NCBI RefSeq assembly: GCF_002177115.1
Contig: NZ_MVAG01000113.1
Location: 1-64,000 of the forward strand
Length of the DNA: 64,000 bases
From: Chryseobacterium mucoviscidosis
GTDB taxonomy: Bacteria; Bacteroidota; Bacteroidia; Flavobacteriales; Weeksellaceae
Direction: 5' to 3'
Part shown: positions 19,514 to 59,306 of the stretch, one piece after another
Position numbering within the stretch: position 1 is the first letter of the stretch
How the letters are laid out: every line of letters begins with the position of its first letter
Position numbers and translations under genes: made by a program
The notes under the pieces: model-generated
What the model was told of the DNA's origin: nothing
What the model saw: the letters and a program-made list of their open reading frames with translations, nothing else
Databases searched by the model: none

Positions 19514-19517
19514 AGGG

Positions 19518-31320: not shown

Positions 31321-32148
31321 ATGAAATATTTACCTAAAAATAAAATTTTAAAACTTCTGGCTGTTCCTGCATTTTTGTTTTCGATGAGTTCATGCGATCA
31401 GGAATCGGTACAAACGCTTCCCGACAGAAACTTTGAGATGGTCTGGAGTGACGAATTCAACGGTACCGCAGGAAGCCTTCCGGATAATAAAAAATGGACA
31501 TTCGATTTAGGAACCGGAGATAACGGATGGGGAAATCAGGAATTGCAGTCGTATACCAATTCCACCAATAATGTTTCTTTAGACGGAAATGGAAATTTAG
31601 TAATCACCGCAAGAAAAAACGGAAACGCTTTCACTTCGGCAAGAGTAAAAACACAGGGACTTTTTTCTCATGCTTACGGAAAAATAGAAGCAAGAATCAA
31701 AACACCTTATGGTCCCGGAATCTGGCCTGCTTTCTGGATGCTGGGCGATAATATCAATACCGTTTCATGGCCTCAGTGTGGCGAAATAGATATTATGGAA
31801 CTGAAAGGACATATCCCGAATGTCGTATACGGAACCCTTCATGGTCCCGGATATTCAGGAGGAAATGCAAAAACAAAAGCCTATGGATTACAAAATGCCA
31901 GATTCGATCAGGACTTCCATGTCTTTGGAGTAGAATGGCAGGAAAACCAGATAGACTTTTTTGTAGACGGATACCTTTATCATCGCGTAAAATCTTCGGA
32001 TGTTTCAGGAGAGTGGGTGTATAATCATCCTTTTTTCCTGATTCTTAACGTGGCAGTCGGAGGAAACTTTGTAGGATTTCCAACGGACGGAACCTCTTTC
32101 CCTCAAAGTATGTACATCGATTATGTAAGAGTTTACAAAGCAAAATAA
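31321..32148 (+). CDS. GH16 endo-beta-1,3-glucanase (laminarinase-like) lipoprotein
   Basis: A 275-aa lipoprotein (lipobox SMSSC, Cys25) consisting almost entirely of one GH16 beta-jelly-roll domain (about 38-275). The catalytic motif is E-I-D-I-M-E (Glu155 nucleophile, Glu160 acid/base), preceded by WPAFWML, and the end VDYVRVYK type (IDYVRVYKAK) is typical. The M residue between the catalytic residues is characteristic of laminarinases and lichenases of this family. Likely an outer-surface endo-beta-1,3-glucanase that makes the first cuts. 18 bp after the preceding gene, so co-transcribed with the first two genes; a palindrome follows at 32164. Confidence 0.92.
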   Translation: MKYLPKNKILKLLAVPAFLFSMSSCDQESVQTLPDRNFEMVWSDEFNGTAGSLPDNKKWTFDLGTGDNGWGNQELQSYTNSTNNVSLDGNGNLVITARKNGNAFTSARVKTQGLFSHAYGKIEARIKTPYGPGIWPAFWMLGDNINTVSWPQCGEIDIMELKGHIPNVVYGTLHGPGYSGGNAKTKAYGLQNARFDQDFHVFGVEWQENQIDFFVDGYLYHRVKSSDVSGEWVYNHPFFLILNVAVGGNFVGFPTDGTSFPQSMYIDYVRVYKAK

Positions 32149-32295: not shown

Positions 32296-35200
32296 ATGCA
32301 ATCCACGATTTCCCATATCGAATCCTCTTTAGAAACTGTAAAAATCAACCACGAAGTTTTTTTTAAAATCTCCGATGCAGAATCGTTGCGTCCGTTTTTT
32401 ATGACCATCGTAAGCGATTCCAATCATTGGATGTTCGTTTCCAGCAATGGCGGACTTTCCGCGGGGAGAAAAAACTCGGAATTTGCCCTTTTTCCGTACT
32501 ACACCGATGATAAAATCACCGAATCGGCAGAAATTACCGGAAGCAAAACGATGGTTCAGATTCATAAAAAAGAGGAAATTATTGTCTGGGAACCTTTTTC
32601 CGTTCGCAATGAAGCGCAATTTCACACTTCGAGAAATGTCTATAAAAACGAATTTGGAAACAAGATTATTTTTGAAGAAATCAACCACGATTTAGCACTC
32701 GCTTTTTCTTATGAATGGAACAACAGCAGCGAATTTGGGTTCATCAAAAAATCAAAAATCAAAAATTTAGCGGCTGGAAATCAATATATAACCGTTTTAG
32801 ACGGATTGCAAAATATTTTACCGTACGGAATCGGAAGCGATTTGCAAAACCGTGTCAGCAATTTGGGCGATGCATACAAACGCACCGAACTCGACGCAAC
32901 ATCCGGACTCGGAATTTTCGCATTAAGTGCCATTATTGTGGATAAAGCCGAACCAAGTGAAGCCTTGAAAGCAAACACCGTTTTTTCCACTGGGACAGAA
33001 AATCCAACGTATTTGCTGTCTTCATTTCAGTTGAAAAATTTCAGAAAAGGCGAAAAAATTACACAGGAAAACGATATTAAAGGCGAAAAAGGAGCCTATT
33101 TTATTCAGCAGGAATTAGAATTAAACACAAATGATGAGAAAGAATGGTGGTTTATCGCCAATGTTAATCAATCTCAATCCAATGTAATCGGTTGGATAGA
33201 ACGCATTAAAAACGAAAAAAATCTTGCTGAAAAAATCCAGAACGATATTGATTTGGGCACTGAAAATCTCAAAAAACTAGTCGCGTCTGCCGATGGATTG
33301 CAGTTTACCAACGACGATCTGCGAGACAGCCGTCATTTTTCCAACACGTTGTTTAACATTATGCGTGGCGGAATTTTTGATGACAATTACACCATCGAAA
33401 AGTGGGATTTTTCCAAATATTTAGAAAAAGCGAATCAAAATATATTCAATCATTCTAAAGAAATTTTAAATAATCTTCCAGAAAAATTTAGTCTTTTTGA
33501 ATTAAATGAATCGTTAAAAAATACAGAAGATGCTGATTTCATAAGATTGGCTAAAGAATATTTACCGCTCAAATTTTCCCGCCGTCACGGCGATCCTTCC
33601 CGTCCCTGGAACAAATTTTCCATCAATACCAGAAGTGAAACCGACGGTTCTAAAATCCTCGATTACGAAGGAAACTGGAGAGATATTTTCCAGAATTGGG
33701 AAGCTTTGGCGCATTCCTATCCGTATTTTATCGAAGGAATGATTTTCAAATTCCTCAATGCAACAACTTTTGACGGGTACAATCCGTATCGGGTAACCAA
33801 AGACGGTTTCGATTGGGAAACGATTGAAGCCGACGATCCGTGGAGCTACATTGGATATTGGGGCGATCATCAGATTATTTATCTGTTGAAGTTTTTAGAA
33901 TTTACCGAAAATTATTTCCCAAATTCTTTAGAAACACTTTTAGACAAAGAATATTTCGTGTATGCTAATGTTCCGTATAAAATAAAATCCTACACCGAAA
34001 TCTTGGAAAATCCTAAAGATACCATTGATTTTGATTTCGATTTGGATGAAAAAATCCACCAAAGAAGAGCCGAAATGGGAGCAGACGGTGCTTTGCTTAC
34101 CGATGAAAACGGAGAAGTGTTGAAGGTAAATTTCACTGAAAAAATATTGGCAACCGTTTTGGCTAAATTATCCAATTTCATTTTGGAAGGCGGGATCTGG
34201 ATGAACACGCAACGTCCGGAATGGAACGATGCCAACAACGCTTTGGTAGGAAACGGCGTTTCGATGGTCACGCTGTATTATCTGCGAAGAATGATGAAAT
34301 TTTTCCAGGCTGTTTTTGAAAATTCGGCGTTGGAAAATGTACAAATCTCCAGTGAACTGGTCGATTTTTACAAAAAAATACGAGAAGGTTTTCAGGAAAA
34401 TCTTCATTTGTTGGAAGGAAATATTAGCAACGAAGACCGCAAAAAAATCCTCGATCTATTTGGCGAAGCCGCTTCGGAATACCGAAATCACGTGTATCAG
34501 AAAGGATTTTGGGGTAAAAAACGAACCGTTTCTTTGGAAGGTTTACAACGATTTACAAACCTTTCGTTGCAGTTTTTGGAACATTCCATTAAAGCTAACG
34601 AAAGAAAAGACGGTTTGTATCACGCGTATAATTTGATGACTTCCAACGAAAAATCCGTTGCGGTTTCCTATCTCAGCGAAATGTTGGAAGGACAGGTTGC
34701 GGTGTTGAGTTCTCAATTTCTGACTTCCGAAGAAGGCTTAAAAGTTTTGGACGCATTGAAAAATTCAGCGTTGTTCCGAGAGGATCAATACAGCTATTTA
34801 TTGTATCCTAACAAGCAACTAAAAGGCTTTTTAGAAAGAAACACCATTCCGGAAAATTTTGTTCAGCAATCAACATTGCTTCAACAATTAGTTTCCGAAA
34901 AAAATACGCAGATCATCGAAAAAGATGTGTTAGGAAATTATCATTTCAATGGAAATTTCAAAAATGCAGGAGATCTAGAATCAGCTTTAGATGATTTAAA
35001 GGTTGAAAATCAGGAAAAAGCCTTGATTTTAGGAATTTTTGAAGAAGTTTTCAATCATAAAGAATTTACCGGAAGAAGCGGCACATTCTACGGGTACGAA
35101 GGTTTAGGCTCTATTTATTGGCATATGGTTTCCAAATTATTGTTAGCCGTAATGGAAGTTTGCCAAAAAGCCATCAACGAAAATGCTTCGCCAGAAACAG

Positions 35201-35718
35201 TGGGAAGATTATTGGAACATTTCTACGAAATCAACGAAGGAATCGGCGTTCACAAATCTCCAGAATTGTATGGCGCATTTCCAACCGATGCCTATTCGCA
35301 CACGCCATTTGGAAAAGGCGCACAGCAACCGGGAATGACGGGACAGGTAAAAGAAGACTTGCTGAGCCGTTTCGGAGAATTGGGAATCGTGGTAAAAGAC
35401 GGACAATTGCAGTTTAAGCCCGATTTATTACGAAAAGAAGAGTTCTTAACGGAAGAAAAAACAATCGAATATTTTGATGTAAAATCCAATACTTCATCAC
35501 TAAAATTGCCAGAAAATTCGTTGTTTTTCACCAAATGTGAAGTTCCGGTAATCTATGAAATTTCGGAAACCGAAAGCGTAGAAATTTTTAATGAACAATG
35601 CGAAGCAAAAATAGAGAACAGTTTAACCATTAATCAAGAAGACTCCGCAAACATCTTCAAAAGAAACGGAAAAATCTCTTTGATTAAAGTAAGAATTAGA
35701 AAAGAACAGTTGAAATAA
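32296..35718 (+). CDS. GH149-like beta-1,3-glucan phosphorylase
   Basis: A 1140-aa cytoplasmic protein: no signal peptide and no transmembrane helix. Length, lack of export signal and gene context (GH16, GH17, GH30, MFS) match the GH149 beta-1,3-glucan phosphorylases, which cleave beta-1,3-oligoglucosides with phosphate to glucose-1-phosphate. Family assignment is from memory of length, context and motifs such as EGNWRDIFQNWEAL and the DDPWSYIGYWGDHQ segment (residues 513-526); related phosphorylase family GH161 is an alternative. It would give energy-saving breakdown of imported glucan. Starts 147 bp after GH16, with a hairpin between. Confidence 0.68.
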   Translation: MQSTISHIESSLETVKINHEVFFKISDAESLRPFFMTIVSDSNHWMFVSSNGGLSAGRKNSEFALFPYYTDDKITESAEITGSKTMVQIHKKEEIIVWEPFSVRNEAQFHTSRNVYKNEFGNKIIFEEINHDLALAFSYEWNNSSEFGFIKKSKIKNLAAGNQYITVLDGLQNILPYGIGSDLQNRVSNLGDAYKRTELDATSGLGIFALSAIIVDKAEPSEALKANTVFSTGTENPTYLLSSFQLKNFRKGEKITQENDIKGEKGAYFIQQELELNTNDEKEWWFIANVNQSQSNVIGWIERIKNEKNLAEKIQNDIDLGTENLKKLVASADGLQFTNDDLRDSRHFSNTLFNIMRGGIFDDNYTIEKWDFSKYLEKANQNIFNHSKEILNNLPEKFSLFELNESLKNTEDADFIRLAKEYLPLKFSRRHGDPSRPWNKFSINTRSETDGSKILDYEGNWRDIFQNWEALAHSYPYFIEGMIFKFLNATTFDGYNPYRVTKDGFDWETIEADDPWSYIGYWGDHQIIYLLKFLEFTENYFPNSLETLLDKEYFVYANVPYKIKSYTEILENPKDTIDFDFDLDEKIHQRRAEMGADGALLTDENGEVLKVNFTEKILATVLAKLSNFILEGGIWMNTQRPEWNDANNALVGNGVSMVTLYYLRRMMKFFQAVFENSALENVQISSELVDFYKKIREGFQENLHLLEGNISNEDRKKILDLFGEAASEYRNHVYQKGFWGKKRTVSLEGLQRFTNLSLQFLEHSIKANERKDGLYHAYNLMTSNEKSVAVSYLSEMLEGQVAVLSSQFLTSEEGLKVLDALKNSALFREDQYSYLLYPNKQLKGFLERNTIPENFVQQSTLLQQLVSEKNTQIIEKDVLGNYHFNGNFKNAGDLESALDDLKVENQEKALILGIFEEVFNHKEFTGRSGTFYGYEGLGSIYWHMVSKLLLAVMEVCQKAINENASPETVGRLLEHFYEINEGIGVHKSPELYGAFPTDAYSHTPFGKGAQQPGMTGQVKEDLLSRFGELGIVVKDGQLQFKPDLLRKEEFLTEEKTIEYFDVKSNTSSLKLPENSLFFTKCEVPVIYEISETESVEIFNEQCEAKIENSLTINQEDSANIFKRNGKISLIKVRIRKEQLK

Positions 35719-35983: not shown

Positions 35984-37255
35984 ATGAAATTATTCCGTGT
36001 AATACCAATTCTTATTTTGACCTATTTAATGTCATGTAACAGTATGCAAAACACAATCAAACATAAAAGTGCATCCGAAATTTTAGGAAATCCTAACTAT
36101 TTGGCAATGTCTTACGGCGGTTACCGAACCAATTCCAGAAGAGTGCAGCCTACCGTTTCGCAGTTGAAAGAAGATATGAAAATTCTTTCGGCGATGGGTG
36201 TGAAAATCATCAGAACGTATAATGTACACCTTCCGGAAGCAGTCAATGTGCTGAAAGCCATCAAAGAATTGCGTCAGGAAAATCCCGAATTTGAAATGTA
36301 CGTGATGCTCGGAGCGTGGATCGACTGTAAAAATGCGTGGACAGGTTTTGAACCCAATCACCACGAAGAAAGCGAAAGAAACGCCTCTGAAATTGCACAC
36401 GCCGTAGAATTGGCAAACGAATATCCGGAAATCATTAAAGTCATTGCAGTAGGAAACGAGGCAATGGTAAAATGGGCAACGGCGTATTACGTGCAACCTT
36501 CCGTGATTTTGAAATGGGTGAATCACCTTCAAAATCTCAAGAAAAAAGGCGAATTGCCAAAAGATTTGTGGATCACGAGTTCCGACAATTTTGCAAGTTG
36601 GGGAGGTGGTGATAAAGAATATCACACCAAAGACCTCAATGAGTTGATCAAAGCGGTGGATTATATTTCGATGCACACGTATCCGATGCACGACACGCAT
36701 TATAACCCGATTTTTTGGGGAATTTCGGAAGATGAATTTCAGTTTTCAAAAGAAAAACAATTGGATTTGGCGATGAATCGCTCCGTAAATTATGCAAAGT
36801 CGCAGTACAATTCGGTGAAAAAATATATGCAAAGTTTGGGCGTAGAAAAACCGATTCACATTGGAGAAACCGGTTGGGCAACATTTTCTAATGAATTGTA
36901 CGGAAGCAATGATTCTAAAGCAGTTGACGAATACAAAGCCGGAATTTTCTATCACAAAATGCGGGATTGGACAAACGATGCGGGAATTTCCTGTTTCTAT
37001 TTTGAAGCGTTTGACGAACCTTGGAAAGATGCCGGAAATGCAGGTGGCTCTGAAAATCATTTTGGATTGTTTACGGTAGACGGAAATGCAAAATATGCGG
37101 TTTGGAATTTGGTGGATGAAGGCGCTTTTAAAAAACTAAAACGGGACGGAAACACCATTCAGAAAACCTTTAACGGAAATCTGAAACGATTGTTAGATTC
37201 TGTGGAAATGCCTCCACATCGGGAATTTAAGAAACAATTGTTGGAAACGAAATGA
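35984..37255 (+). CDS. GH17 beta-1,3-glucanase lipoprotein
   Basis: A 423-aa lipoprotein (lipobox YLMSC, Cys18), periplasmic or surface. The GH17 TIM barrel has the acid/base Glu159 in AVGNEAM and the nucleophile Glu295 in HIGETGWA; SYGGYRTNS and the VKIIRTYN segment are also typical. GH17 enzymes cut or transglycosylate beta-1,3-glucan. In this locus it may trim laminarin oligosaccharides in the periplasm. Two further GH17 domains occur downstream at 38896 and 41325 but these are more similar to each other than to this protein. Confidence 0.9.
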   Translation: MKLFRVIPILILTYLMSCNSMQNTIKHKSASEILGNPNYLAMSYGGYRTNSRRVQPTVSQLKEDMKILSAMGVKIIRTYNVHLPEAVNVLKAIKELRQENPEFEMYVMLGAWIDCKNAWTGFEPNHHEESERNASEIAHAVELANEYPEIIKVIAVGNEAMVKWATAYYVQPSVILKWVNHLQNLKKKGELPKDLWITSSDNFASWGGGDKEYHTKDLNELIKAVDYISMHTYPMHDTHYNPIFWGISEDEFQFSKEKQLDLAMNRSVNYAKSQYNSVKKYMQSLGVEKPIHIGETGWATFSNELYGSNDSKAVDEYKAGIFYHKMRDWTNDAGISCFYFEAFDEPWKDAGNAGGSENHFGLFTVDGNAKYAVWNLVDEGAFKKLKRDGNTIQKTFNGNLKRLLDSVEMPPHREFKKQLLETK

Positions 37256-37357: not shown

Positions 37358-37389
37358 ATAAAAAACATTTGGAAAACAAATCCAAAAAT

Positions 37390-38874
37390 ATGAAAACAAA
37401 AATCTTACATATCGTCTTAATAACCAGTTTGATGATGAGTTGTCAATCTCAAAAATCGTGGAAAACAGACATCTACGAAACCTCTGCAAGCGGAAATCAA
37501 TTAACTAAAATTGATGCGGTAAAACCTGTTGAAAATTCCATTAAAATTAAACTCAATCCTGCACAGAGATTCCAAAAAATTACAGGATTTGGTGGCGCTT
37601 TTACCGAAAGTTCGGCGTATTTACTCAACAAATTAAGCCCAAAAAATCGGGAAAAAGTGTTGCAATTGTATTTTGGGGAAGATGGAGCGAATTATTCTTT
37701 AACCCGCACCACGATTGCTTCCTGCGATTTTTCTTTGAAAAATTACACCTACGCTCCAGTTGCAGACGATAAAGAACTGAAACATTTTTCGGTGAAGGAA
37801 GATATGGATGATTTGGTTCCGATGATTAAAGAAGCGCAGAAAATTTCAAAAAACGGGTTTAAAATACTGGCTTCACCGTGGACTTCACCACCTTGGATGA
37901 AAGATAACAATGCGTGGATCAACGGAAAATTATTGCCGCAATACAACGAAACGTTTGCACTCTATTTTTCAAAATATTTGACAGAATATAAAAAATTAGG
38001 CATTCCGATTTGGGGAATTACCGTAGTGAACGAACCCCACGGAAACGGCGGAAACTGGGAAAGTATGTTGTTTACCCCAAAAGAAATGACCGATTTCGTG
38101 GAAAATTTCTTAGGTCCGAAATTAGAAAAAGACGGCTACGGAAACGTGAAAATTTTCGGCTACGACCAAAACCGTTCTGAACTTAAAAACTGGGTAGACG
38201 AAATGTACCGCTCCGAAAAATCTTCCAAATATTTTGCAGGAACAGCCATTCATTGGTACGACAGCACCTATAAAATTTTTGAAGACGAGCTGCAATACGC
38301 ACATCAGAAAAATCCGTCAAAGCACTTAATTCAAACTGAAGCCTGTATAGACGGCGATATTCCGAAATGGAAAGATGATTCGTGGTATTGGAGCGCAGAA
38401 GCGACAGATTGGGGATTTGACTGGGCGAAAGAAGAAGAAAAATATCTGCATCCAAAATACGTTCCGGTTTTCCGTTACGCAGGAGACATCATCGGTTGCT
38501 TGAACAATCAGGTTGATGGTTGGATCGATTGGAATATGGTTTTGGATAAAAACGGCGGTCCGAACTGGTTTAAAAACTGGTGTGGCGCACCGATTTTGGT
38601 AGATCCCGAAAAAGACGAAGTGTATGTAACGCCTTTATACTACACGATGGCGCATTTCAGCAAATTTATTCGTCCCGAAGCCGTAAGAATTGGTTTTGAA
38701 AATCCTGATTCTGATTTAAAAATTACAGCTGCTAAAAATCCCGACGGTTCGGTTGCGGTGGTGATCTTCAATCCATCGGAACAGGCAAAAAATATCGAAA
38801 TATCCTTAGAAAATCAAAAAATTCCGGTTCGCATCAGTGCAAAAGCATTGCAAACGGTTCATTTAACTTTTTAA
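37390..38874 (+). CDS. GH30 glycosidase lipoprotein
   Basis: A 494-aa lipoprotein (lipobox MMSC, Cys18) of GH30, the family of glucosylceramidase-like and beta-1,6-glucanase enzymes. Catalytic residues: Glu215 (acid/base) in VVNEPHG and Glu317 (nucleophile) in IQTEACID; GFGGAFTES near the start and a C-terminal beta-sandwich (about 430-494) fit the family. In a laminarin locus it is expected to remove beta-1,6 branches. The frame extends to a TTG at 37369; the ATG at 37390 begins the lipoprotein signal. 21 bp upstream of the MFS-GH17 gene. Confidence 0.9.
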   Translation: MKTKILHIVLITSLMMSCQSQKSWKTDIYETSASGNQLTKIDAVKPVENSIKIKLNPAQRFQKITGFGGAFTESSAYLLNKLSPKNREKVLQLYFGEDGANYSLTRTTIASCDFSLKNYTYAPVADDKELKHFSVKEDMDDLVPMIKEAQKISKNGFKILASPWTSPPWMKDNNAWINGKLLPQYNETFALYFSKYLTEYKKLGIPIWGITVVNEPHGNGGNWESMLFTPKEMTDFVENFLGPKLEKDGYGNVKIFGYDQNRSELKNWVDEMYRSEKSSKYFAGTAIHWYDSTYKIFEDELQYAHQKNPSKHLIQTEACIDGDIPKWKDDSWYWSAEATDWGFDWAKEEEKYLHPKYVPVFRYAGDIIGCLNNQVDGWIDWNMVLDKNGGPNWFKNWCGAPILVDPEKDEVYVTPLYYTMAHFSKFIRPEAVRIGFENPDSDLKITAAKNPDGSVAVVIFNPSEQAKNIEISLENQKIPVRISAKALQTVHLTF

Positions 38875-38895: not shown

Positions 38896-41259
38896 ATGGC
38901 AGATCAAATCAAAAAATCAGCGAATAAAGTTCCAATCGGTCAGAAGGTCGCTTTTGGGTTGGGAATGTTGGCGAACCAGATGTTTCCTGCAATGATCGGG
39001 ATTTTCACCGTTGTATTGGTAGAGAAACTCGGCTTTAGCGGATTTTTGTTAGGCTTAACCTACTTTATTCCTAAGTTTTATGACGCTTTGTTTGATTTGA
39101 TTATGGGATATGTAAGCGATAATACCAAATCCAAATGGGGAAGAAGAAGACAGTATGTTTTAGCAGGAGCCATTATTTTAGGGATTTCGTTTGCTTTGAT
39201 GTGGCAGTTGTATGCTGAAAATGGTGTTACGTACAATTTTTGGTACTTTTTGGTGGTTTCACTTATTTTTTATTCAGGATTAACCATCTTCAGTATTCCT
39301 TACGTGGCGATGGGTTACGAAATGAGCGACGATTTCCATGAGCGTACCAATATTATGGCGACTTCTCAGTTGATTGGTCAGTTAGCTTGGGTGGTTGCAC
39401 CTTGGTTTTGGGTAATCATGGCAGATCAGTCCTTATTTCCATCCAGTGATGTTGCGGTGAGAACTTTGGCGGTTTATGTTGCTATTGGTTGTGCCATTTT
39501 AGCGGCAATTCCGGCATTTTTTATTCCAAGTAAATCGACACTTCACGAAAATTACAGTCCGATTGATTTGAAAGGAATCCTCGGAAGTTTCGGCGAAATA
39601 AAAGAAGGATTGAAAGCTTCGGTAGAAATTAAACCGTTCAGAAAAATATGTATTGCTACTTTTTTAATATTTAATGCATTTCAGACTACAGCCGGATTTT
39701 CCTACTTCATCATCAAATATTATTTGTTCAAAGGAAATGAAGAGGGATTTGGATTATGGCCCACTTTATTCGGAAGTGTAGGTGCAATTATTACAACCGT
39801 TGCAGTCATTCCTATCGTGGCAAGAATGTCGAAAGTAATGGGCAAGAAGAAAGCATTTTTGGTTTCTCAGGGCATTTCAATCGTGGGTTATATTTTACTG
39901 TATTTACTTTTCGTTCCGGGCAAACCGTATCTGTTTCTGTTTGCGTTGCCGTTTTTCTCCTTCGGAATCGGGAGTTTGTTTACCTTAATGATGTCCATGA
40001 CTTCTGATGTAATCGATATTGATGAACTCAACACAGGAAAAAGAAGAGAAGGAAGTTTAGGCGCTATTTATTGGTGGATGGTAAAATTCGGAACCGCTGT
40101 TGCGGGATTATTAAGTGGGATGATTCTTTCTTTGGTCGCTTTTCAATCCAATGCCGCTACACAAACCGATGAAACGATGTTTTGGTTACGAATTTTCTTT
40201 GTCGGCATTCCGATTTTAGGAACTTTAGCCGCCATTTGGGCAATGAAAGATTATGATGTAGATGAAGCCAAAGCCAGAGAAGTAAGAGATTTATTAGAAA
40301 AAAGAAAAGCCCCCAAACCTTCCGGATACGGCGCGAACAATGTTTTAGAAGGAATGAATTTGGCAGGACTTTCAAGAGCGCAATTGCAACAAAAATTCCC
40401 ACAATATTATTTCCCAACATTTGATTATACCAATGTTGAAGGCATAAAAACCGAATTTTCAACGGTTTTCAAAGCAGGAATGACCGGAATTTGTTTCAGC
40501 GTTTTTACCGAAAAACAATTTCCGGGAGACTTTATCACCGAAGAGCAAATCAGAAAACGCCTCGAAATATTAAAACCTCATACGCAATGGATCAGGGTAT
40601 TTTCTTCTACCCACGGACACGAGAATATTCCAAAAATCGCCAAAAAAATGGGCTTCAAAGTGTTAATGGGAGCGTGGATTGGCAAGGATGAGGTAGAAAA
40701 TCAGCAGGAAATTCAGGTTTTAATTCAGTTAATTAAAGAAGGAAATGTAGATATTGCCGCTGTTGGAAACGAAGTCCTTTTCCGTGGCGACCAAAACGAA
40801 GAAACTTTACTAGGATATATTCAACAAGTTAAAAATCAAACGCTGAATACTCCTGTAACTTATATTGATGTGTATTACGAAATCATCAATCACCCGAAAT
40901 TGGTTTCTGCAAGTGATAAAATTTTAATTAATTGTTATCCTTTCTGGGAAGGCGCATCCATAGACCATGCCGGAATGTATTTGCAGGAAATGTATCATCA
41001 AACCAAAAAAATCGCAGGCGGAAAAGAAATCATCATCGCAGAAACCGGTTGGCCAAGTAAAGGCGAAGAAGTACAAAACGCAAAACCATCCACCGAAAAC
41101 TTGATGAGATACTTCATCGAAGCGCAAAAATGGGCATCAAAAGAACAAATCAACTTGTTTTATTTCTCTTCTTTCGATGAATCGTGGAAAATCCATTACG
41201 AAGGTTGGGCAGGAACTTCGTGGGGATTGTGGGATACCAATGAAAATTTCAAATTTTGA
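38896..41259 (+). CDS. MFS (GPH-type) sugar transporter fused to a GH17 domain
   Basis: A 787-aa fusion. Residues 1-450 are a 12-helix major facilitator protein of the glycoside-pentoside-hexuronide type (SDNTKSKWGRRRQYVL, IPYVAMGYEMS); residues about 450-520 are a charged, Pro-rich linker; residues about 525-787 are a GH17 barrel with Glu626 (AVGNEVL) and Glu716 (AETGWPSKGE). Both ends of a 12-helix MFS are cytoplasmic, so the GH17 domain should face the cytoplasm. The domain is closely similar to the next gene product. The arrangement couples import of beta-glucan oligosaccharides to their hydrolysis or transglycosylation. Fusion confirmed by a continuous reading frame with no stop; no assembly artefact is evident. 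Confidence 0.9.
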   Translation: MADQIKKSANKVPIGQKVAFGLGMLANQMFPAMIGIFTVVLVEKLGFSGFLLGLTYFIPKFYDALFDLIMGYVSDNTKSKWGRRRQYVLAGAIILGISFALMWQLYAENGVTYNFWYFLVVSLIFYSGLTIFSIPYVAMGYEMSDDFHERTNIMATSQLIGQLAWVVAPWFWVIMADQSLFPSSDVAVRTLAVYVAIGCAILAAIPAFFIPSKSTLHENYSPIDLKGILGSFGEIKEGLKASVEIKPFRKICIATFLIFNAFQTTAGFSYFIIKYYLFKGNEEGFGLWPTLFGSVGAIITTVAVIPIVARMSKVMGKKKAFLVSQGISIVGYILLYLLFVPGKPYLFLFALPFFSFGIGSLFTLMMSMTSDVIDIDELNTGKRREGSLGAIYWWMVKFGTAVAGLLSGMILSLVAFQSNAATQTDETMFWLRIFFVGIPILGTLAAIWAMKDYDVDEAKAREVRDLLEKRKAPKPSGYGANNVLEGMNLAGLSRAQLQQKFPQYYFPTFDYTNVEGIKTEFSTVFKAGMTGICFSVFTEKQFPGDFITEEQIRKRLEILKPHTQWIRVFSSTHGHENIPKIAKKMGFKVLMGAWIGKDEVENQQEIQVLIQLIKEGNVDIAAVGNEVLFRGDQNEETLLGYIQQVKNQTLNTPVTYIDVYYEIINHPKLVSASDKILINCYPFWEGASIDHAGMYLQEMYHQTKKIAGGKEIIIAETGWPSKGEEVQNAKPSTENLMRYFIEAQKWASKEQINLFYFSSFDESWKIHYEGWAGTSWGLWDTNENFKF

Positions 41260-41324
41260 AAACAGACAAGAAATATCAGACTAAATCATCATTTATCATT
41301 CATCATCACAATAATCTTTAGAAT

Positions 41325-42221
41325 ATGTCGTACAGAGCAGAGCAGTATTTATCCTTACCCAAGCAAAATCAGGATAATTACATCAAAGGAAAAACCGAAA
41401 CCGAAAAAAGAGATTTGTTCAGAGAAATTCTGTACAACGGCATTCACGGCTTTTGTTTTAGTTTGTATGAGGACGGACAAAAACCCGGCGACATCATTTC
41501 CGAGGAGCAGGTTCGCCGAAGAATGGAAATCCTGAAACCGCACACTTTGTGGGTTCGCTCGTTTTCCTGCACCGAAGGCAACGAACACATCCCGAAAATT
41601 GCCAAAGAATTCGGAATGAAAACCTTGGTCGGAGCTTGGTTGGGCGACGATCCCGAAATCAACGAAAGAGAAGTGGAAGGATTGATAAAACTTGCCAAAG
41701 AAGGTTTTGTAGACATTGCAGCAGTCGGAAATGAGGTAATGTACCGAAAAGATTTATCCGAAGACGAGTTGCTGGATTTTATCAACCGAGTAAAAAAAGA
41801 AATCCCCGAAATTCCGGTAGGTTACGTAGATGCCTATTACGAATTCACCATAAAACCAAGAATTACCGAGGCTTGCGACGTTATTTTGGCAAACTGTTAT
41901 CCGTTTTGGGAAAGCTGTCCTGCTGAAAACTCGCTCAATTATATGAAGCAGATGTATTATCAGGCAAAACAGGCAGCCAACGGAAAACCTGTTATCATTT
42001 CCGAAACCGGTTGGCCAAGCAAAGGCGAAGAACTAAAAGGCGCTTTTCCATCAGAAAAAAATGCGCTGGATTATTTCATCAACACCCAATTGTGGTGTAT
42101 GGACGAGGAAATCGACTGTTTCTACTTTTCCTCTTTCGATGAAAGTTGGAAAGTTGGTCCCGAAGGCGAAGTCGGCGCACATTGGGGGATTTGGGACAAA
42201 CACGAGAAGTTGAAGTATTGA
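41325..42221 (+). CDS. Cytoplasmic GH17 enzyme
   Basis: A 298-aa GH17 protein without signal peptide. Catalytic Glu137 (AVGNEVM) and Glu227 (SETGWPSKGE) correspond to those of the upstream fusion, and many segments match it (RRRMEILKPHT, NCYPFWE, FYFSSFDESWK), so the two arose by duplication. It probably acts in the cytoplasm on imported oligosaccharides, alongside the phosphorylase. 65 bp after the MFS-GH17 stop, so most likely in the same operon. Transglycosylation rather than hydrolysis is possible in this family. Confidence 0.88.
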   Translation: MSYRAEQYLSLPKQNQDNYIKGKTETEKRDLFREILYNGIHGFCFSLYEDGQKPGDIISEEQVRRRMEILKPHTLWVRSFSCTEGNEHIPKIAKEFGMKTLVGAWLGDDPEINEREVEGLIKLAKEGFVDIAAVGNEVMYRKDLSEDELLDFINRVKKEIPEIPVGYVDAYYEFTIKPRITEACDVILANCYPFWESCPAENSLNYMKQMYYQAKQAANGKPVIISETGWPSKGEELKGAFPSEKNALDYFINTQLWCMDEEIDCFYFSSFDESWKVGPEGEVGAHWGIWDKHEKLKY

Positions 42222-42453: not shown

Positions 42454-44154
42454 ATGATCAAAAAATTACACCATATCGTTCTATTCTTTTTAAGCACACT
42501 TTATTTGGCGCAGGTCGATGTCGTGTACAATGATTTGGTCTGGTCCGACGAATTTTCCACCAACGGCGCTGTTGACAATACCAAATGGTTTCATCAAACT
42601 CAATTGCCTACAACAGGTGGTTGGTACAATAATGAGCAACAACATTACACCAATCTCATCACCAATTCTTTCGCGAACAATGGTGAACTGAATATTGTTG
42701 CTAAAAAAGAAACCTTTACCGATCAGGGGTATACCAAAAATTATACTTCGGCAAGATTAAATTCAAAATTTGCTTTTAAATATGGCAGAGTTGATGTACG
42801 GGCAAAAGTTCCTAAAAACCAAGGAAATTGGCCTGCAATCTGGCTTTTAGGAAGAAATATCAACGAACCGGGTGGCTATTTCGCTTCTACTTATGGAAAT
42901 ACCAATTGGCCGGCTTGTGGAGAAATTGATATGATGGAATACGGAATTTTCCCTTCTGCTCCAGTAAATTTTATTAAGAGTACGTTGCATACGCCGTCAT
43001 CGTCAGGAAATTCTGTCAACCACGGCGGAATGTTGGCTTCATCAGACATTACCGATAATTACCACATTTATTCGATGAACTGGTCGCCGAATCAAATTAC
43101 ATTTTTGCTAGACGGAGTGGCGTATTACACTTACAATCCTGCCGTTAAAAATGCATCGACTTGGCCTTTTGATAAAGAACAGTATTTGTTACTCAATATT
43201 GCAATGGGCGGTGTTGCAGGAAACATTCCTTCCACATTTACCAATGCCTCGATGATTATTGATTATGTGAGAGTCTATCAGAATACCACTCCGGATACGG
43301 TTGCACCCACCAATTTTACCGCAACAGTAGGAGCAGTAACCAGCGATTCCGTAGAATTATTACTGAATGCGACGGATAATTTTGGAGCGATTACTTATCA
43401 GATTTCGGGTGGTGCGACGCAAACGGTTTACGGAACTTCTGGAGTTCAAAAATCTGTAATTATTTCAGGGTTAAGTCCATCTACCAATTATAACTTTAAT
43501 ATTTCCGCAAGCGATGGAGCAGGAAATACCGCAGCCAATAATCCCATCATACTGAATGCAACCACACTTTCCAATATCAACACGGCTTGCAACGGCGCAT
43601 CTACACTGGCTTCACAAGGTGCTTTTTCTACGGGATACAAATACGACTTTCAAACCACTGGAGCCGATGTGAAAATTACGTTTGAACTTTTAGATACCGA
43701 TAAAACAGGTGTTGTAGCTTATTTATGGAAACAAACCCCTTTTACAGAAACACCAATGACCAATGTTTCCGGAAAGAAATTTTCGGGTACCATTACAGGA
43801 CAAACCGCGGGTTCTACAATTAATTATGCAGTGAAATTTGCCTACGCAGGAGGAATGTCGGTGACTAAATATTATTCTTACGTAGTTGGCGATGCGTGTA
43901 TGTCTCTAGGAGTTGCAGATTCCTTTAAAGCCAAAGAACTGTTTTATCCCAATCCTGTTGAAAATGTTCTGAGTCTGAAATTACCTGAGAACAAAAATAC
44001 GGTTACACTTTATGATTTTTCAGGGAAGAAACTTTTTGGAAAAAATGTGGGGACGACTTTGGATTTAGATTTTAGTTCTTTTTTATCGGGTACTTATTTA
44101 ATCAAAATTGAAAATCAGAAAGGAACCAATACATATAAAATCATAAAAAAATAA
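42454..44154 (+). CDS. GH16 laminarinase-like enzyme with T9SS domain
   Basis: A 566-aa secreted enzyme. Order: signal peptide (1-19), GH16 domain (about 25-285) with Glu157 and Glu162 in GEIDMMEY, a fibronectin III-like domain (about 290-375), a beta-sandwich module (about 375-485), and a type A T9SS sorting domain (about 490-566, LFYPNPVENVLSL). In contrast to the GH16 lipoprotein at 31321, it would be exported through the T9SS and work at the surface or outside the cell. The catalytic spacing is the beta-1,3-glucanase type. Preceded by a strong hairpin and an A/T-rich leader. Confidence 0.92.
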   Translation: MIKKLHHIVLFFLSTLYLAQVDVVYNDLVWSDEFSTNGAVDNTKWFHQTQLPTTGGWYNNEQQHYTNLITNSFANNGELNIVAKKETFTDQGYTKNYTSARLNSKFAFKYGRVDVRAKVPKNQGNWPAIWLLGRNINEPGGYFASTYGNTNWPACGEIDMMEYGIFPSAPVNFIKSTLHTPSSSGNSVNHGGMLASSDITDNYHIYSMNWSPNQITFLLDGVAYYTYNPAVKNASTWPFDKEQYLLLNIAMGGVAGNIPSTFTNASMIIDYVRVYQNTTPDTVAPTNFTATVGAVTSDSVELLLNATDNFGAITYQISGGATQTVYGTSGVQKSVIISGLSPSTNYNFNISASDGAGNTAANNPIILNATTLSNINTACNGASTLASQGAFSTGYKYDFQTTGADVKITFELLDTDKTGVVAYLWKQTPFTETPMTNVSGKKFSGTITGQTAGSTINYAVKFAYAGGMSVTKYYSYVVGDACMSLGVADSFKAKELFYPNPVENVLSLKLPENKNTVTLYDFSGKKLFGKNVGTTLDLDFSSFLSGTYLIKIENQKGTNTYKIIKK

Positions 44155-44239: not shown

Positions 44240-45814
44240 ATGAAAAATTTATCTCTTTTTTTAATGCTTTTGGCATTTAGTTTTGGCTTTTCTCAGCCAA
44301 CAACTAACGCACCGACTCCTACTCAGGCAGCGGCAGATGTAATTTCTATATTCAGTGATGCTTATACGAATGTTGCTACGAACTATAATCCGAACTGGGG
44401 ACAGTCCGGAAGTGTGAATACTTCTTTTCAGGCGGTTTCTGGATCTGGAAATAATATTTTGGTATATTCTAATTTCAATTATCAGGGAACAGATCTTACC
44501 ACTCAGAATGCTGCTGCGATGGAATATCTTCACATTGACGTCTGGACAAATACTGCAGGTGCTGTTCTTAAAGTTTCACCCATCAATAACGGAACAGGAT
44601 CCAGTGAATTTTTGGTGAATGTTCCTCTCACGAATGCGGGATGGAGCAGTGTAGATCTTCCAAAATCTGCGTTTACGGGAATGACCTGGAATTCTGTTTT
44701 TCAGATAAAATTTGACGGACAGTCCGGAGCAAATCCTTCGACAATTTACCTGGATAATATCTATTTCTGGAAAAATCCCGTGAATCCTACTGCAGATGCT
44801 ACTTTAAGCGATTTAAAAGTAAACGGAACCACTGTTTCAGGGTTCAGTTCTGCGATTCTTTCCTATACTTTGGAATATCCGCAAGGTACAACGGCTGTTC
44901 CGCAAATTACTGCGGCTACAACCACCAATGCAAGCGCAACAAAAGTCATTACTCAGTCATCGGCAATTCCGGGTACGGCAACTGTTTTGGTAACCTCACA
45001 AAACGGATTGGTAACCAAAACATACACGGTAAATTATGTAGTTTCAGGACCTAATGTTGCTGCGCCAACTCCTCCTGCGAGAGCAGCGACGGATGTTATT
45101 TCCATGTTCAGTAATGCTTATGCCAATATTCCGATTGATGCATGGTCTGCGGTTTGGGACGATTCTAGTATTTCTGATATTCAGGTAGCAGGAAATGATA
45201 CTAAAAAAATTATTTTCACCAATTTCCTAGGAGTGGATTTCAGCGGAGCCGGACATCATATCAATGCAACTAATTTCACCCATTTCCATATGGATATCTG
45301 GATCGACAATAGTGTGGATCTGGTAGGGAAAGTATTCAATCTTAAACTTTCACAATGGGGAGGAACTTCGGGAGAGGTTTCTGCACTGGAGCTTCCGCTT
45401 AATACAGGAACTACACCTGCTTTGGTAAAAGGGCAATGGCTTTCAATTGATGTTCCGCTAAGTAGCTGGACGAATAATGCTGCAAGAAATGATATCGCCC
45501 AGTTTGTGATTACTTCCAATATCGGAACGGTTTATTTTGATAATCTCTATTTTCATAAAGCTACAGTATTGGGAACCAACGAAGCTACCGTTTCCAAAAG
45601 CTTGAGAGTTTATCCTAATCCTGCGAATGTAGGTGAAACAATTACGGCAGAAAGTAAAGTGAAAACCATCGAAGTGTATACTTTATCGGGACAAAAAGTA
45701 AAGAGTGAGAACTCAAATACCATATCCACACAAGGATTTGCTAAAGGAATGTATATTTTGAAAACCACGACAGATAAAGGGGAAGTTCAGTCTTCAAAAG
45801 TTATTGTGAAATAA
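44240..45814 (+). CDS. T9SS-exported glucan-binding protein with two CBM-like modules
   Basis: A 524-aa secreted protein. Signal peptide (1-18), binding-like module (about 24-192), cadherin-like beta-sandwich (about 193-270, ADATLSDLKVNG), second binding-like module (about 275-445), T9SS sorting domain (about 450-524, RVYPNPANVGET). The two modules resemble those in the lipoprotein at 29419, with DVIS-x-FS-D/N-A-Y motifs and endings like IYLDNIYFWK. No catalytic motif is seen. Likely an extracellular beta-glucan binding partner of the GH16-T9SS enzyme. A terminator at 45839 follows. Confidence 0.78.
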   Translation: MKNLSLFLMLLAFSFGFSQPTTNAPTPTQAAADVISIFSDAYTNVATNYNPNWGQSGSVNTSFQAVSGSGNNILVYSNFNYQGTDLTTQNAAAMEYLHIDVWTNTAGAVLKVSPINNGTGSSEFLVNVPLTNAGWSSVDLPKSAFTGMTWNSVFQIKFDGQSGANPSTIYLDNIYFWKNPVNPTADATLSDLKVNGTTVSGFSSAILSYTLEYPQGTTAVPQITAATTTNASATKVITQSSAIPGTATVLVTSQNGLVTKTYTVNYVVSGPNVAAPTPPARAATDVISMFSNAYANIPIDAWSAVWDDSSISDIQVAGNDTKKIIFTNFLGVDFSGAGHHINATNFTHFHMDIWIDNSVDLVGKVFNLKLSQWGGTSGEVSALELPLNTGTTPALVKGQWLSIDVPLSSWTNNAARNDIAQFVITSNIGTVYFDNLYFHKATVLGTNEATVSKSLRVYPNPANVGETITAESKVKTIEVYTLSGQKVKSENSNTISTQGFAKGMYILKTTTDKGEVQSSKVIVK

Positions 45815-45868: not shown

Positions 45869-45895
45869 CTTAAATTTTATCTATATTTGAGTAGA

Positions 45896-48592
45896 ATGCT
45901 GAAATACTTTTTTGTTTACTTTTTACTGTTCCTGAGTTTTTTTTCTAATGCACAGAGCATTTTAGAAAAAGGAATGCCCTTTGTGCAGAATTATCTGCCC
46001 GAAAGCTATGGAAATCACGGTAAAATCTGGGATATTAAATCGGCAAAAAACGGCATGATCTACATGGCTTCCGAAGACGGGCTTCTGGAGTTTGATGGTA
46101 AAACATGGGGACATTTTAAAAGTTACCGTGGCTATACAAGATCTTTATATGTTGCCAATGATTCTACCATTTACGCTGGAGCGGATATGGATTTTGGGAT
46201 CTGGAAAAGAAATAAATTCAGAAAATTCACTTTTACTTCGCTGTATCCTTTCAAAAAGAAAATAGGTGGCGTTAATGAGGAGTTTTGGGGAACATATCAG
46301 ATTAAAAATCAGATGGTTTTTGTATCTCATCAAAACATTTATATACGTTCGGAAAAAAAACTCACCAAATTTTCTGCAAAATCCAGATTTTCCAATAGTT
46401 TCTTCGTCAACGGAAGATTGTTTCTTGCCGATGAAAAAAAAGGACTCTTTGAGTACGACGGAATACAGTTGAAACTCCTGTTTTCTTATCCCGATAAGAG
46501 CTCTTTGGATGTAAGCGGTGTTTTTTTTAACGGAAATTCTCTACGCATCATTACTAAAGATAAAGGAATTTTTGAATGGAATAACGGCAGACTTATCCCT
46601 ATTCAGCTTGAAGTTTCTTCAGTGCTTATCAAAAACAAAGTTTTCAGTTTCATTACTTTGGGGACACAGTATTACGCTTTCGGAACTATACTGGACGGAA
46701 TATACATTACGGATCTGAACGGAAAAATCATTCAGCACATTAACAAAAGCAAAGGCTTGCCTAATAATACCGTTTTGTGCATGAATTACCAAAAAAGCGG
46801 TAAACTGTGGCTCGGTCTGGATTATGGAATCTCTTCTGTAGATATTCAAAATCATATTACCTATTTTTACAGTCAGGATGATGATTTCGGGACGGGTTAC
46901 ACAGCAGCTTTTAAAGACGATACTTTCTTTTTAGGTTCTAATCAAGGATTGTATTTTACAGACTGGAATGAAATGGGAAATTCGGGATCCGGCAATTTTT
47001 TACGAATGGTAGAAGGATCGGAAGGACAGGTTTGGACGCTTAAAAATATTGACGGAAATCTGTATTGCGGTCACGATAAAGGACTTTTTATTCTGGAGAA
47101 AAACAGTTTAAAAAAAGTTAATAATGAATATGGCGTTTCTGCAATTACCCCTTTCAGGAAAGATTATGTTTTAACAGGAAACTATTCTGGAATTTTCGTT
47201 TACAAAAAAGAAAACAATACACTCAAATTCATAAAAAAGCTGAATTTAATTGTAGGAGCGGTAAGTCAGATTGAAGTGGAAAATGATCATACAATCTGGA
47301 TCAATATTCCTAATTACGGGATCTTGCGGACAACCGTTGATGCCAGTTTTAACGCGGTTAATCGTCAGATTTTTCCCGATAGTAATTTTAAAGGAAATCT
47401 GCCGCATATTTACAATAATAATGGGAAGATAAAAATTGTTACTTCTTCAGAACAGTATGATTTCAGTTATTCAAACAATACATTTTCTCCTGCTTCTGAA
47501 AAATTACAGCTCCCGCTTATTAACGGTAAGCTTTCCGGATTTTATATTCCCCAAAAATTATCTGCGGAATATAACTTTTTCCCTATATACAACGGTTTTG
47601 CGTTGGAAAAACTGAATTTTCAAGATAAGAACAGGTTCAGTTCCCGGCTTATTTTCACGAAGGCACAGATGTTTAACAATATGGGAAATTTTGATCTGGA
47701 AGAAAATCAAAAGCTTCCTTACCGGTTCAATAATCTCCGTTTTGTATTTTCGCTTCCCAACGAAGAAGGAGTAGAATATCAGTACTTTCTGGATGGATTT
47801 TCAAAAGACTGGTCTGTCTGGAATTCTGAAAATAAAATAGAGTTTCTTGGTCTCAAAGAAGGAACATACAGCTTTTTGGTAAAAGCTAAAATCGGAAACC
47901 AGATATCTGACGTAAAAACATTTACCTTTAGAATCAATCCGCCTTGGTACAGAAGCCTGTATAGTTATGCAGCTTATCTTCTTATGATAGCGGGCTTTTT
48001 TTACTTCCTTAAAAAATATCAGGAAAATAAACTGAAAAAACAAAAACTGGAACTTCTGAAAAAAGAGCAGAATGCACTTCGCGAACAGGCAGAAAAGCAC
48101 AGACAGGAAATGTTTTTTGAAAAACAGCGACAGCTTGAAAATGAGAAAAATAACCTCAAAGAAGAGATCAAAAACAAAACCATAGAACTTGCCACCAAAG
48201 CCAAAGAAGATGAAGATAAAAACCGCCTTCTTTCTACCATTAATGAAAAAATACTTGAAATAGAAAATAACCCGAATATTTCTAAAATAAGACTCGGTGA
48301 AATCCGCAGAACCCTGAAAACCTATCTGGAAACAGACGATCATACATTCGAAATCCAGATGGATGAACTTCATCAGGAGTTTTTCAAGGCAATGAGGAAG
48401 AAATTTCCCAATCTTTCCATATACGATCTGCGTTTATGCGCATACCTTAAAATTGGGCTGAATTCTAAAGAAATGGCAGATATTTTTCAGGTATTGCCTT
48501 CCAGTATCAATGTAAGCCGATCCAGACTGAGAAAAAAACTCGGGCTGAAACCGGAAGATGATCTGTTTGATTTTCTGAATAATTTTGAATAG
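45896..48592 (+). CDS. YXYXY/LuxR-type membrane regulator of the glucan locus
   Basis: An 898-aa one-component regulator. Order: signal peptide (1-20), a two-propeller-like sensor region (about 25-600, with repeated GKIWDIK and GLLEFDG blades), a YXYXY domain (about 615-685, YQYFLDGFSKDW), one transmembrane helix (about 688-706), a long coiled coil (about 710-790) and a LuxR-like HTH (about 835-898, YDLRLCAYLKIGLNSKEMADIF). No histidine kinase domain is present, unlike hybrid two-component PUL regulators. The frame begins upstream at a TTG (45887); the ATG at 45896 is preferred. Being next to the locus it probably controls it in response to glucan oligosaccharides, which is inference. Confidence 0.85.
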   Translation: MLKYFFVYFLLFLSFFSNAQSILEKGMPFVQNYLPESYGNHGKIWDIKSAKNGMIYMASEDGLLEFDGKTWGHFKSYRGYTRSLYVANDSTIYAGADMDFGIWKRNKFRKFTFTSLYPFKKKIGGVNEEFWGTYQIKNQMVFVSHQNIYIRSEKKLTKFSAKSRFSNSFFVNGRLFLADEKKGLFEYDGIQLKLLFSYPDKSSLDVSGVFFNGNSLRIITKDKGIFEWNNGRLIPIQLEVSSVLIKNKVFSFITLGTQYYAFGTILDGIYITDLNGKIIQHINKSKGLPNNTVLCMNYQKSGKLWLGLDYGISSVDIQNHITYFYSQDDDFGTGYTAAFKDDTFFLGSNQGLYFTDWNEMGNSGSGNFLRMVEGSEGQVWTLKNIDGNLYCGHDKGLFILEKNSLKKVNNEYGVSAITPFRKDYVLTGNYSGIFVYKKENNTLKFIKKLNLIVGAVSQIEVENDHTIWINIPNYGILRTTVDASFNAVNRQIFPDSNFKGNLPHIYNNNGKIKIVTSSEQYDFSYSNNTFSPASEKLQLPLINGKLSGFYIPQKLSAEYNFFPIYNGFALEKLNFQDKNRFSSRLIFTKAQMFNNMGNFDLEENQKLPYRFNNLRFVFSLPNEEGVEYQYFLDGFSKDWSVWNSENKIEFLGLKEGTYSFLVKAKIGNQISDVKTFTFRINPPWYRSLYSYAAYLLMIAGFFYFLKKYQENKLKKQKLELLKKEQNALREQAEKHRQEMFFEKQRQLENEKNNLKEEIKNKTIELATKAKEDEDKNRLLSTINEKILEIENNPNISKIRLGEIRRTLKTYLETDDHTFEIQMDELHQEFFKAMRKKFPNLSIYDLRLCAYLKIGLNSKEMADIFQVLPSSINVSRSRLRKKLGLKPEDDLFDFLNNFE

Positions 48593-50456: not shown

Positions 50457-50467
50457 ACATTATAAGG

Positions 50468-51493: not shown

Positions 51494-51549
51494 TTAGGTG
51501 TGGATCATGGAAAGTTAGATCAGTTTTTATTCCATGTTCTGCAGAAAAA

Positions 51550-51577
51550 AGCGGCTGTCCCGATCGGGACAGCCGCT
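51550..51577. terminator. Bidirectional terminator between convergent genes
   Basis: A perfect 28-bp palindrome, each arm AGCGGCTGTCCCGA, flanked by an A-run on the left and AT-rich sequence on the right. It lies between the PL10 gene (plus) and the PL1 gene (minus) and can serve both. Confidence 0.85.
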
Positions 51578-51594
51578 CATTTATATGAATAGTA

Positions 51595-52716: not shown

Positions 52717-52853
52717 AGTAAGTATGGTTTTAATTATGATTAGATTGTAAAATTACAAATACGGTAAACAAATAATTTATATTTTAACATATCTATATTT
52801 ATATAATTATAATGTTATTTATTTTATTTGGTTAATCGGTTGCATTTTATTTA

Positions 52854-53036
52854 ATGTTTAAAATTTACTTGATGCTGAATTGTAAATTAAAAATCCCAAA
52901 GATGATCCGGTGTAAGAAATTTAAATCTCCTGAACCGGAAAATCTTCGGGAAAAAATATTAGCTGTTTGGTATATGTATTATTTAACTGATAAACAGTTG
53001 GTTGTGTTATTTTTAAAAATGGGATTTAAAAAATAA
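52854..53036 (+). CDS. Doubtful 60-aa open frame
   Basis: A short basic frame in the gap between two minus-strand pectin genes, with no recognisable family, no ribosome-binding or promoter support, and an unusual plus-strand position. It could be a spurious frame. The remaining intergenic sequence (52717-52853) is AT-rich and holds only the likely promoter region of the PL1 gene. Confidence 0.2.
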   Translation: MFKIYLMLNCKLKIPKMIRCKKFKSPEPENLREKILAVWYMYYLTDKQLVVLFLKMGFKK

Positions 53037-53045
53037 AATGGAGCC

Positions 53046-53393: not shown

Positions 53394-53561
53394 CTTATTA
53401 CTTTTTAATTATTATAACTAATTTTTACATCATGTCATTTCGACGAAGAAGAAATCTAATGTATTGATTGATTTTATGTTGTTCTCGCGCAGATTTTGCT
53501 GATTGAGCAGATCTTTAAAAGGTTTTTGTCCGTAAAGATTCTCTTAATTAAGTGGGAAACT

Positions 53562-54299: not shown

Positions 54300-54565
54300 T
54301 TTAAATAAATTTTTTAATTTATATTCTTTTGTCTTGGAAACAAAAGAATCAAAAGTTCAAGACCTGGAAACTTCCGCTAAAAATTATTTCTATTCACTAA
54401 AAATCCTAGAACTCGCGCGAATTTGATGTTTGTCTTTTTATTCAGTATTTTGGTCGCGCTCAAACAATAGAATTTTCTTAACGTTCACAGAATTAATTTT
54501 CTTAACGCTCCATTTTCCTATGTCGATTTAGCGAATGGTAATCATTACTCATTATTAATTACTCA

Positions 54566-58441: not shown

Positions 58442-58445
58442 TTTA

Positions 58446-59279: not shown

Positions 59280-59306
59280 TGATTCTAACTAAATTTTTAT
59301 GTACAC

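Follow-up and report, generated by a model that had tools for sequence, protein, structure and literature searches.

Introduction

Why should a sugar carrier and a glycoside hydrolase share one polypeptide when a related hydrolase is encoded by the very next gene? The question is raised by a beta-1,3-glucan cluster (plus strand, 26279-48592) in a 64,000-nucleotide stretch of DNA from Chryseobacterium mucoviscidosis (NZ_MVAG01000113.1, positions 1 to 64,000), called the window here. In this cluster, a fusion of a major facilitator superfamily (MFS) carrier to a GH17 domain is followed by a stand-alone GH17 gene. Our answer is that the fusion may be an importer whose cytoplasmic GH17 domain clips beta-1,3-gluco-oligosaccharides as they emerge, with the stand-alone GH17 acting as a transglycosylase, a reading drawn from sequence to which we give a probability of roughly two in three.

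Fusions of this kind have precedents. The original prediction, made from the letters of the window, took the arrangement to be undescribed, but it is reported in PMC6246565 and PMC10108472. The Formosa protein FbGH17B (FORMB_24740) was noted to be an MFS fusion, and such fusions were called common among marine Flavobacteriia (Unfried et al. 2018, PMC6246565). FbGH17B released glucose from debranched laminarin but had no activity on branched laminarin, and was described as an exo-beta-1,3-glucosidase in which hydrolysis and uptake are possibly coupled (PMC6246565). During a bloom, most expressed laminarin loci of variant 1, gammaproteobacterial ones included, contained at least one copy of a GH17-MFS fusion (PMC10108472). 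The inner-membrane fusion is already known; what becomes testable is the side of the membrane on which its enzyme lies and a division of chemistry between fused and soluble GH17.

The MFS-GH17 fusion and its distribution

A single uninterrupted frame of 787 codons encodes the carrier and the GH17 domain, as was originally predicted and as the frame and domain searches confirm. For the carrier part (38896-40311, plus strand; residues 1-472), 12 membrane helices are predicted, with a further helix at residues 457-471; it scores over the cut-off of Pfam MFS_2 and has the MelB fold, in agreement with its first description as a 12-helix GPH-type carrier. It does not reach the NCBIfam model TIGR00792 gph (161.8 bits against a cut-off of 231.35), and by these matches it is a relative of the GPH carriers that lies outside the strict TIGR00792 subfamily model. 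Two of its residues, Asp63 and Asp67, are invariant in the carrier alignment and correspond to the two Asp residues of MelB that are the sites of mutants D55C and D59C according to structure titles; we infer that the carrier is a cation symporter. A linker (40312-40422, plus strand), variable among homologues and of low model confidence at residues 473-480, leads into the GH17 domain (40423-41259, plus strand; about residues 510-787 and the stop codon). This domain exceeds the cut-off of Pfam PF00332 and has both the catalytic acid/base and the nucleophile; Glu626 and Glu716, the pair first read from the window, are conserved in homologues. The whole 787-residue protein matches RmBgt17A (4wtp) at 1.8e-32. 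With 12 helices and then GH17 in one frame, within a laminarin-type locus, the fusion is of the FbGH17B kind described in PMC6246565, and FORMB_24740 (AOR29491) of Formosa sp. Hel1_33_131 likewise has GH17 at the C-terminal end of an MFS carrier, its cluster also encoding GH17A and GH30. A frameshift or assembly artefact at the junction (about 40240-40440) is ruled out by the same frame in independent genomes.

The next gene (41325-42221, plus strand) encodes a GH17 paralogue that also scores over the PF00332 cut-off, has the same two catalytic residues and matches 4wtp at 7.1e-31. By hydropathy it lacks a hydrophobic N-terminus, which upholds its description as a related GH17 without a signal peptide.

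Counts of loci rest on the best 80 of at least 553 confirmed in a scan of genome contigs; these 80 are the best matches to the fused query, and fused loci are over-represented among them. The fused frame is present in 75 of the 80, and carrier and GH17 are separate genes in the other 5. The stand-alone GH17 lies just downstream in 70 of the 75 fused loci and is absent in two (L062, L100), and three (L032, L038, L051) are cut by a contig end. The 80 loci span Flavobacteriaceae, Weeksellaceae, Chitinophagaceae, Saprospiraceae, Cyclobacteriaceae and other families; L027 is the cluster of Flavobacterium aquatile. One pond and one groundwater metagenome-assembled genome (MAG) are among the loci with the carrier, and the arrangement is therefore not only marine. 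In a survey of 198 genomes of the window's class, one of them the window genome (G000), matches to the 787-residue query at 1e-100 or better came from 13, in four cases (G068, G120, G106, G184) through the carrier part alone. Among 59 relatives searched, only G000, G026 (one of 35 congeners) and G038 have the fusion. Among the 51 loci that span 22 kb or more, matches over the score cut-offs place GH149 in all 51, GH17A in 49 and GH30 in 36. Three loci (L061, L087, L098) have two carrier genes of this family close together; the second one is without the fusion in L061 and L098, where it adjoins a fused one.

One alternative interpretation is that the fusion is a tether for co-expression only, in which case the GH17 domain would act like any soluble cytoplasmic enzyme and leave transport unaffected. 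The 5 loci in which the same carrier is unfused and then followed by a soluble GH17, as well as the variable linker with its low-confidence stretch, would suit this explanation. We nevertheless consider it unlikely, given that 75 loci across many families retain the fusion, albeit in a sample that favours fused loci, and that the fused copy has a residue pattern of its own, unlike that of the adjoining soluble GH17.

Two paralogous GH17 lines

The residue pattern can be read against two published enzymes. MlGH17B of Muricauda lutaonensis (WIW39500) is a transglycosylating enzyme whose Tyr136, Trp191 and Glu192 are named as important for transglycosylation, citing RmBgt17A mutants, and Met takes the place of Tyr136 in FbGH17B (PMC11005184). 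The window's stand-alone GH17 keeps all three residues and in that respect is of the MlGH17B type; as published descriptions have it, MlGH17B is likewise a single-domain GH17 (295 residues) with this triad and no signal peptide, and the laminarin locus that encodes it has an MFS gene adjoining (PMC11005184, PMC13188888). The fused domain of the window has Phe629 at the Tyr136 position, compared with the Met described for FbGH17B (PMC11005184).

Our alignment comprised fused domains (78), their stand-alone neighbours (74), the GH17s of five loci whose carrier is unfused (split loci; 6) and distant third copies (15); only copies longer than 200 residues were kept, and L001-L003 represent the window genome and two relatives. 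Tyr occupies the Tyr136 position in 67 of the 74 stand-alone and 6 of the 6 split-locus GH17s, compared to 7 of the 78 fused domains, which otherwise have Leu (37), His (13), Phe (10), Met (6) or Gln (5). All seven stand-alone copies without Tyr have Leu. When the 73 pairs from the same locus were compared, Tyr was present in the stand-alone copy only in 59, in both copies in 7, in neither in 7 and in the fused copy only in none. A Fisher test of the split takes no account of relatedness, and its value does not amount to a probability for independent events. A second position is that of Pro50, a residue that stacks at subsite -3: all 74 stand-alone copies have Pro there, compared with 17 of the 78 fused ones. 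At the positions of Trp191 and Glu192, no fused or stand-alone row with a letter departs from these residues. Across the 19 active-site positions of MlGH17B compared, Pro50, Tyr136, Tyr168 and Ser275 vary and the other 15 are identical in both kinds. In a tree built by a quick method, with support from the Shimodaira-Hasegawa-like approximate likelihood ratio test (SH-aLRT) only, the stand-alone and split-locus GH17s form one clade (SH-aLRT 98) with the fused copies outside it, and Chryseobacterium binzhouense is the nearest named relative.

By residues and tree, the fused and the stand-alone kind of GH17 represent two lines of paralogues maintained side by side. The split at Tyr136 between the two kinds predicts a hydrolase for the fused domain and a transglycosylase for the stand-alone enzyme, both of which we regard as likely. 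This narrows the original prediction, which had allowed the fused enzyme cleavage or transglycosylation: the residues favour hydrolysis for the fused copy and transglycosylation for the stand-alone one. A single residue position thereby offers a lead to the difference in chemistry. In the literature searched, we found this survey of a residue split between GH17 paralogues to be new, its starting point, the Met of FbGH17B, being given in PMC11005184.

Alternatively, both GH17s could share one mixed hydrolase and transglycosylase activity, and the pair would then be a matter of gene dosage. Such a reading is improbable: the 15 shared active-site positions agree with it, and a hidden transglycosylase activity of FbGH17B is left open by PMC11005184, but the two kinds diverge repeatedly at Tyr136, at Pro50 and in further columns, and the stand-alone kind is one clade.

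A third, distant GH17 copy of about 310 residues lies downstream in 15 loci, including L023, L031 and L035, with His at the Asn186 position and Val or Ala at the Tyr136 position; the window has none.

Topology and proposed mechanism

The loops of the window protein contain 27 lysine and arginine residues on the inner side and 3 on the outer side, and the inner side has the excess in 43 of 43 aligned rows, the C-terminal tail left out. No thirteenth hydrophobic segment was found after helix 12 (best 19-residue mean, 1.03). From the helix count and the inner-side excess, the fused GH17 domain is predicted to be cytoplasmic, as had first been proposed. A periplasmic GH17 that trims oligosaccharides ahead of the carrier, a placement compatible with PMC6246565, which in the portions cited suggests coupled hydrolysis and uptake without fixing the side, is very hard to reconcile with the 12 predicted helices, the 27:3 distribution of positive residues, the missing thirteenth segment and a paralogue without a signal peptide.

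We propose the following pathway for the importer with a cytoplasmic, clipping GH17. To judge from the neighbouring genes and from Formosa, the substrate is presumably a laminarin-type glucan. The secreted GH16 and the periplasmic GH16, GH17A and GH30 lipoproteins, placed by sorting tail or lipobox and with roles taken from Formosa, would cut and debranch it. The carrier would import linear oligosaccharides, from which the fused GH17 would remove glucose at the inner mouth of the carrier; this exo-hydrolysis is suggested by analogy with FbGH17B, and the fusion could keep an imported oligosaccharide from leaving again. The stand-alone GH17, a transglycosylase by analogy with MlGH17B, may rearrange longer chains in the cytoplasm, where GH149 would phosphorolyse chains to glucose-1-phosphate. 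The stand-alone GH17 and GH149 could share cytoplasmic chains much as MalQ and MalP share maltodextrins.

Several observations weigh against this reading. The carrier occurs without the fusion in 5 of the 80 loci and in 4 of the 13 carrier-bearing class genomes, and the fusion is therefore dispensable for the pathway. The residue split is not absolute, with Tyr in seven fused and Leu in seven stand-alone GH17s, and the fused domain may also transglycosylate to some extent, as Trp191 and Glu192 are kept in both kinds. MlGH17B is reported to have very low activity below a degree of polymerization (DP) of 5, and the imported oligosaccharides may be of DP2-4. The fused group requires two changes in the GH17 tree, with which a single origin is compatible but by which it is not demonstrated.

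The outer-membrane step

How would fragments reach the periplasm? The import of glycans in Bacteroidota is usually ascribed to SusC/SusD. No SusC or SusD gene was found in the glucan cluster of the window; with 31 of 45 first-look candidates scored, the nearest SusD and over-cut-off SusC of G000 lie on the same contig, on the minus strand beyond a pectin cluster (C10:64917-69681). The first gene of the glucan cluster (26279-29407, plus strand) encodes a protein with a signal peptide by eye, a TIM barrel at about residues 20-420 and a predicted outer-membrane beta-barrel at about residues 435-1042.

A structure search retrieved GH158, GH157, GH5 and GH2 enzymes for the N-terminal part, and an alignment profile of this domain weakly matched BuGH158 (6pal, 2.7e-4) and GH158(Pro) (9oro, 0.0077). 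Glu167 and Glu268 of this domain do not vary across 32 rows. The fold resembles that of 6pal and 9oro, but those proteins, at about 407-424 residues, leave no room for a barrel of 600 residues, and the domain is a possible member of GH158. The C-terminal part of about 600 residues (435-1042) matched no Pfam or NCBIfam model. The predicted model of the protein is of moderate confidence (predicted local distance difference test, pLDDT, 70.7; predicted template modelling score, pTM, 0.49) and has about 24 longer strands in this part, which on this model matched BtuB, OprC, FepA and MOMP in Foldseek at 4.7e-9 to 6e-8. The 24 strands of at least 6 residues, six shorter or in-loop strands left out, alternate in hydropathy (0 of 2000 shuffles as high), whereas the strands of the TIM barrel have no such alternation (0.67 of shuffles as high). 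The VIA alignment of the whole model gave only glycosidases among 50 rows, and the barrel fold therefore rests on the Foldseek matches and the strand alternation. From the model, we predict that residues from about 435 to 1042 form an outer-membrane barrel, with the enzyme domain periplasmic.

The barrel part was found in 11 of the 198 class genomes, encoded in frames 1041-1078 residues long, and each of these genomes also belongs to the 13 with the carrier (hypergeometric 2e-16, relatedness ignored). It was also found in 32 of the 43 genomes that underlie 43 of the 80 loci. In 41 of 41 distinct barrel genomes, the barrel gene is upstream of the carrier, on its strand and at a distance of about 6-13 kb, a few carrier bounds being estimated. 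Because all 11 class genomes also have the carrier and the upstream position is fixed in all 41, the barrel fusion, by gene order, belongs to the same system as the MFS-GH17 carrier.

Scoring for SusC covered part of the candidates from a first look (31 of 45 in G000; elsewhere, for example, 25 of 36 or 31 of 88), and some contigs, such as those of G275, G180 and G229, hold less than 25 kb upstream. Within these bounds, no SusC over the cut-off was found within 25 kb upstream in 36 of the 41 barrel genomes; one was present on the same strand in 5 of the 41, compared to 6 of 13 genomes without the barrel (Fisher 0.015, relatedness not corrected for). Telling against a substitution, barrel and SusC both lie within this distance in G220, G273, G276, G288 and G294, and 7 of the 13 genomes without the barrel have neither. 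A barrel that simply replaces SusC/SusD is weakened by these five clusters with both and seven with neither. In terms of gene content, the barrel fusion is often the sole outer-membrane candidate near the cluster, though not a strict SusC/SusD substitute. For the outer-membrane step of the window's cluster, we regard the GH158-like/beta-barrel fusion, and not a SusC/SusD pair, as the likely provider.

Beyond this, we tentatively consider, at somewhat less than even odds, a relay across two membranes with a hydrolase at every transport step, in which the GH158-like enzyme with a plug-less barrel of an unnamed family would replace SusC/SusD, the MFS-GH17 fusion would take the fragments inward, the glucan would be cut while crossing each membrane, and uptake of a glycan in Bacteroidota would be independent of SusC/SusD. 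If this is true, the outer-membrane enzyme-barrel fusion matters more than the inner one, as it would be another entry for glycans besides SusC/SusD.

GH149 clusters without susCD have already been noticed, with the outer-membrane route left unnamed in the portions cited (PMC5827456, PMC10108472). Those of Bacteroidetes described by Kuhaudomlarp et al. (2018, PMC5827456) combine GH149 with beta-1,3-glucanases, as in the window, but in the portions cited no outer-membrane protein is named for them, unlike the barrel fusion here. Variant-1 laminarin loci similarly have GH149, GH17, GH30_1, GH16 and the GH17-MFS fusion, and that of the NS4 MAG W_MB115 lacks susCD like the window's cluster; the description of these loci, in the portions cited and in contrast to the window's cluster, mentions no barrel-fused glycosidase (PMC10108472). 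The laminarin loci of Formosa have TonB receptors and SusD (PMC6246565), whereas the window's cluster has none nearby. The enzyme-barrel fusion was not found in the literature searched, which comprised the listed part of the hits with supplements outside it, and searches of this kind for the MFS-GH17 fusion did not find all of its known papers; as far as this literature goes, a predicted outer-membrane enzyme-barrel fusion linked to the carrier cluster is new.

Two gene sets from the survey can be set beside these clusters. G120, a genome without the barrel, has in order SusC and SusD, a 450-residue frame, GH16, a barrel-less GH158-like gene of 422 residues, GH149, a 611-residue frame, GH17A, GH30, the unfused carrier and the stand-alone GH17. 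L103 (G068; 3031-4461) has the barrel fusion and an unfused carrier, with no adjoining cytoplasmic GH17 within 19.9 kb. No PF14322 match and no SusC over the cut-off was found in G068 or in G229, two of the 11 class genomes with the barrel, the latter 80% complete.

Other genes in the window

All genes of the glucan cluster are on the plus strand. The seven intergenic gaps among its first eight genes measure 11 to 265 bases, which would fit one transcription unit. After the barrel fusion comes a lipoprotein (29419-31302; lipobox by eye) that is possibly a surface glycan binder, with a weak CBM_11 match (0.0024; 18.4 bits, under the Pfam cut-off of 27). A GH16 lipoprotein (31321-32148; Pfam GH16, lipobox by eye) precedes the GH149 beta-1,3-glucan phosphorylase (32296-35718), which scores 1776.6 bits against NCBIfam NF058639 (cut-off 1150) and has no signal peptide by eye; phosphorolysis of beta-1,3-glucan chains to glucose-1-phosphate is reported for GH149 (PMC5827456, PMC6484121). 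The GH17A lipoprotein (35984-37255; lipobox by eye) is a relative of the solved GH17 6fcg (9.4e-188), and the GH30 lipoprotein (37369-38874; Pfam GH30, lipobox by eye) is, by comparison with FbGH30, a likely beta-1,6 debranching enzyme. Downstream of the stand-alone GH17 are a secreted GH16 with a type IX secretion system (T9SS) sorting tail (42454-44154; Pfam GH16 and Por_Secre_tail), a second secreted protein with a T9SS tail (44240-45814) whose repeats are, by eye, common to the 29419-31302 lipoprotein, and a Y_Y_Y-domain sensor-regulator (45887-48592; Pfam Y_Y_Y) that, by position, possibly regulates the cluster.

Directly upstream of the glucan cluster, a gene at 21091-25713 encodes a secreted protein of 1540 residues with FG-GAP repeats, UnbV_ASPIC, DUF7619 and a T9SS tail. 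On the other side, the pectin cluster occupies 49272-64000 and continues to G000:C10:69681, with DUF4861, Pec_lyase and Pectate_lyase_4 by Pfam and esterase-, GH28-, GH105- and GH43-like frames by eye; it ends in the SusD and SusC pair beyond the window. A small system at 14616-20651 has a TonB-type receptor frame (15794-18034) between two paralogous secreted proteins of 379 and 455 residues; the membrane protein encoded next is, by eye, similar to HupE/UreJ.

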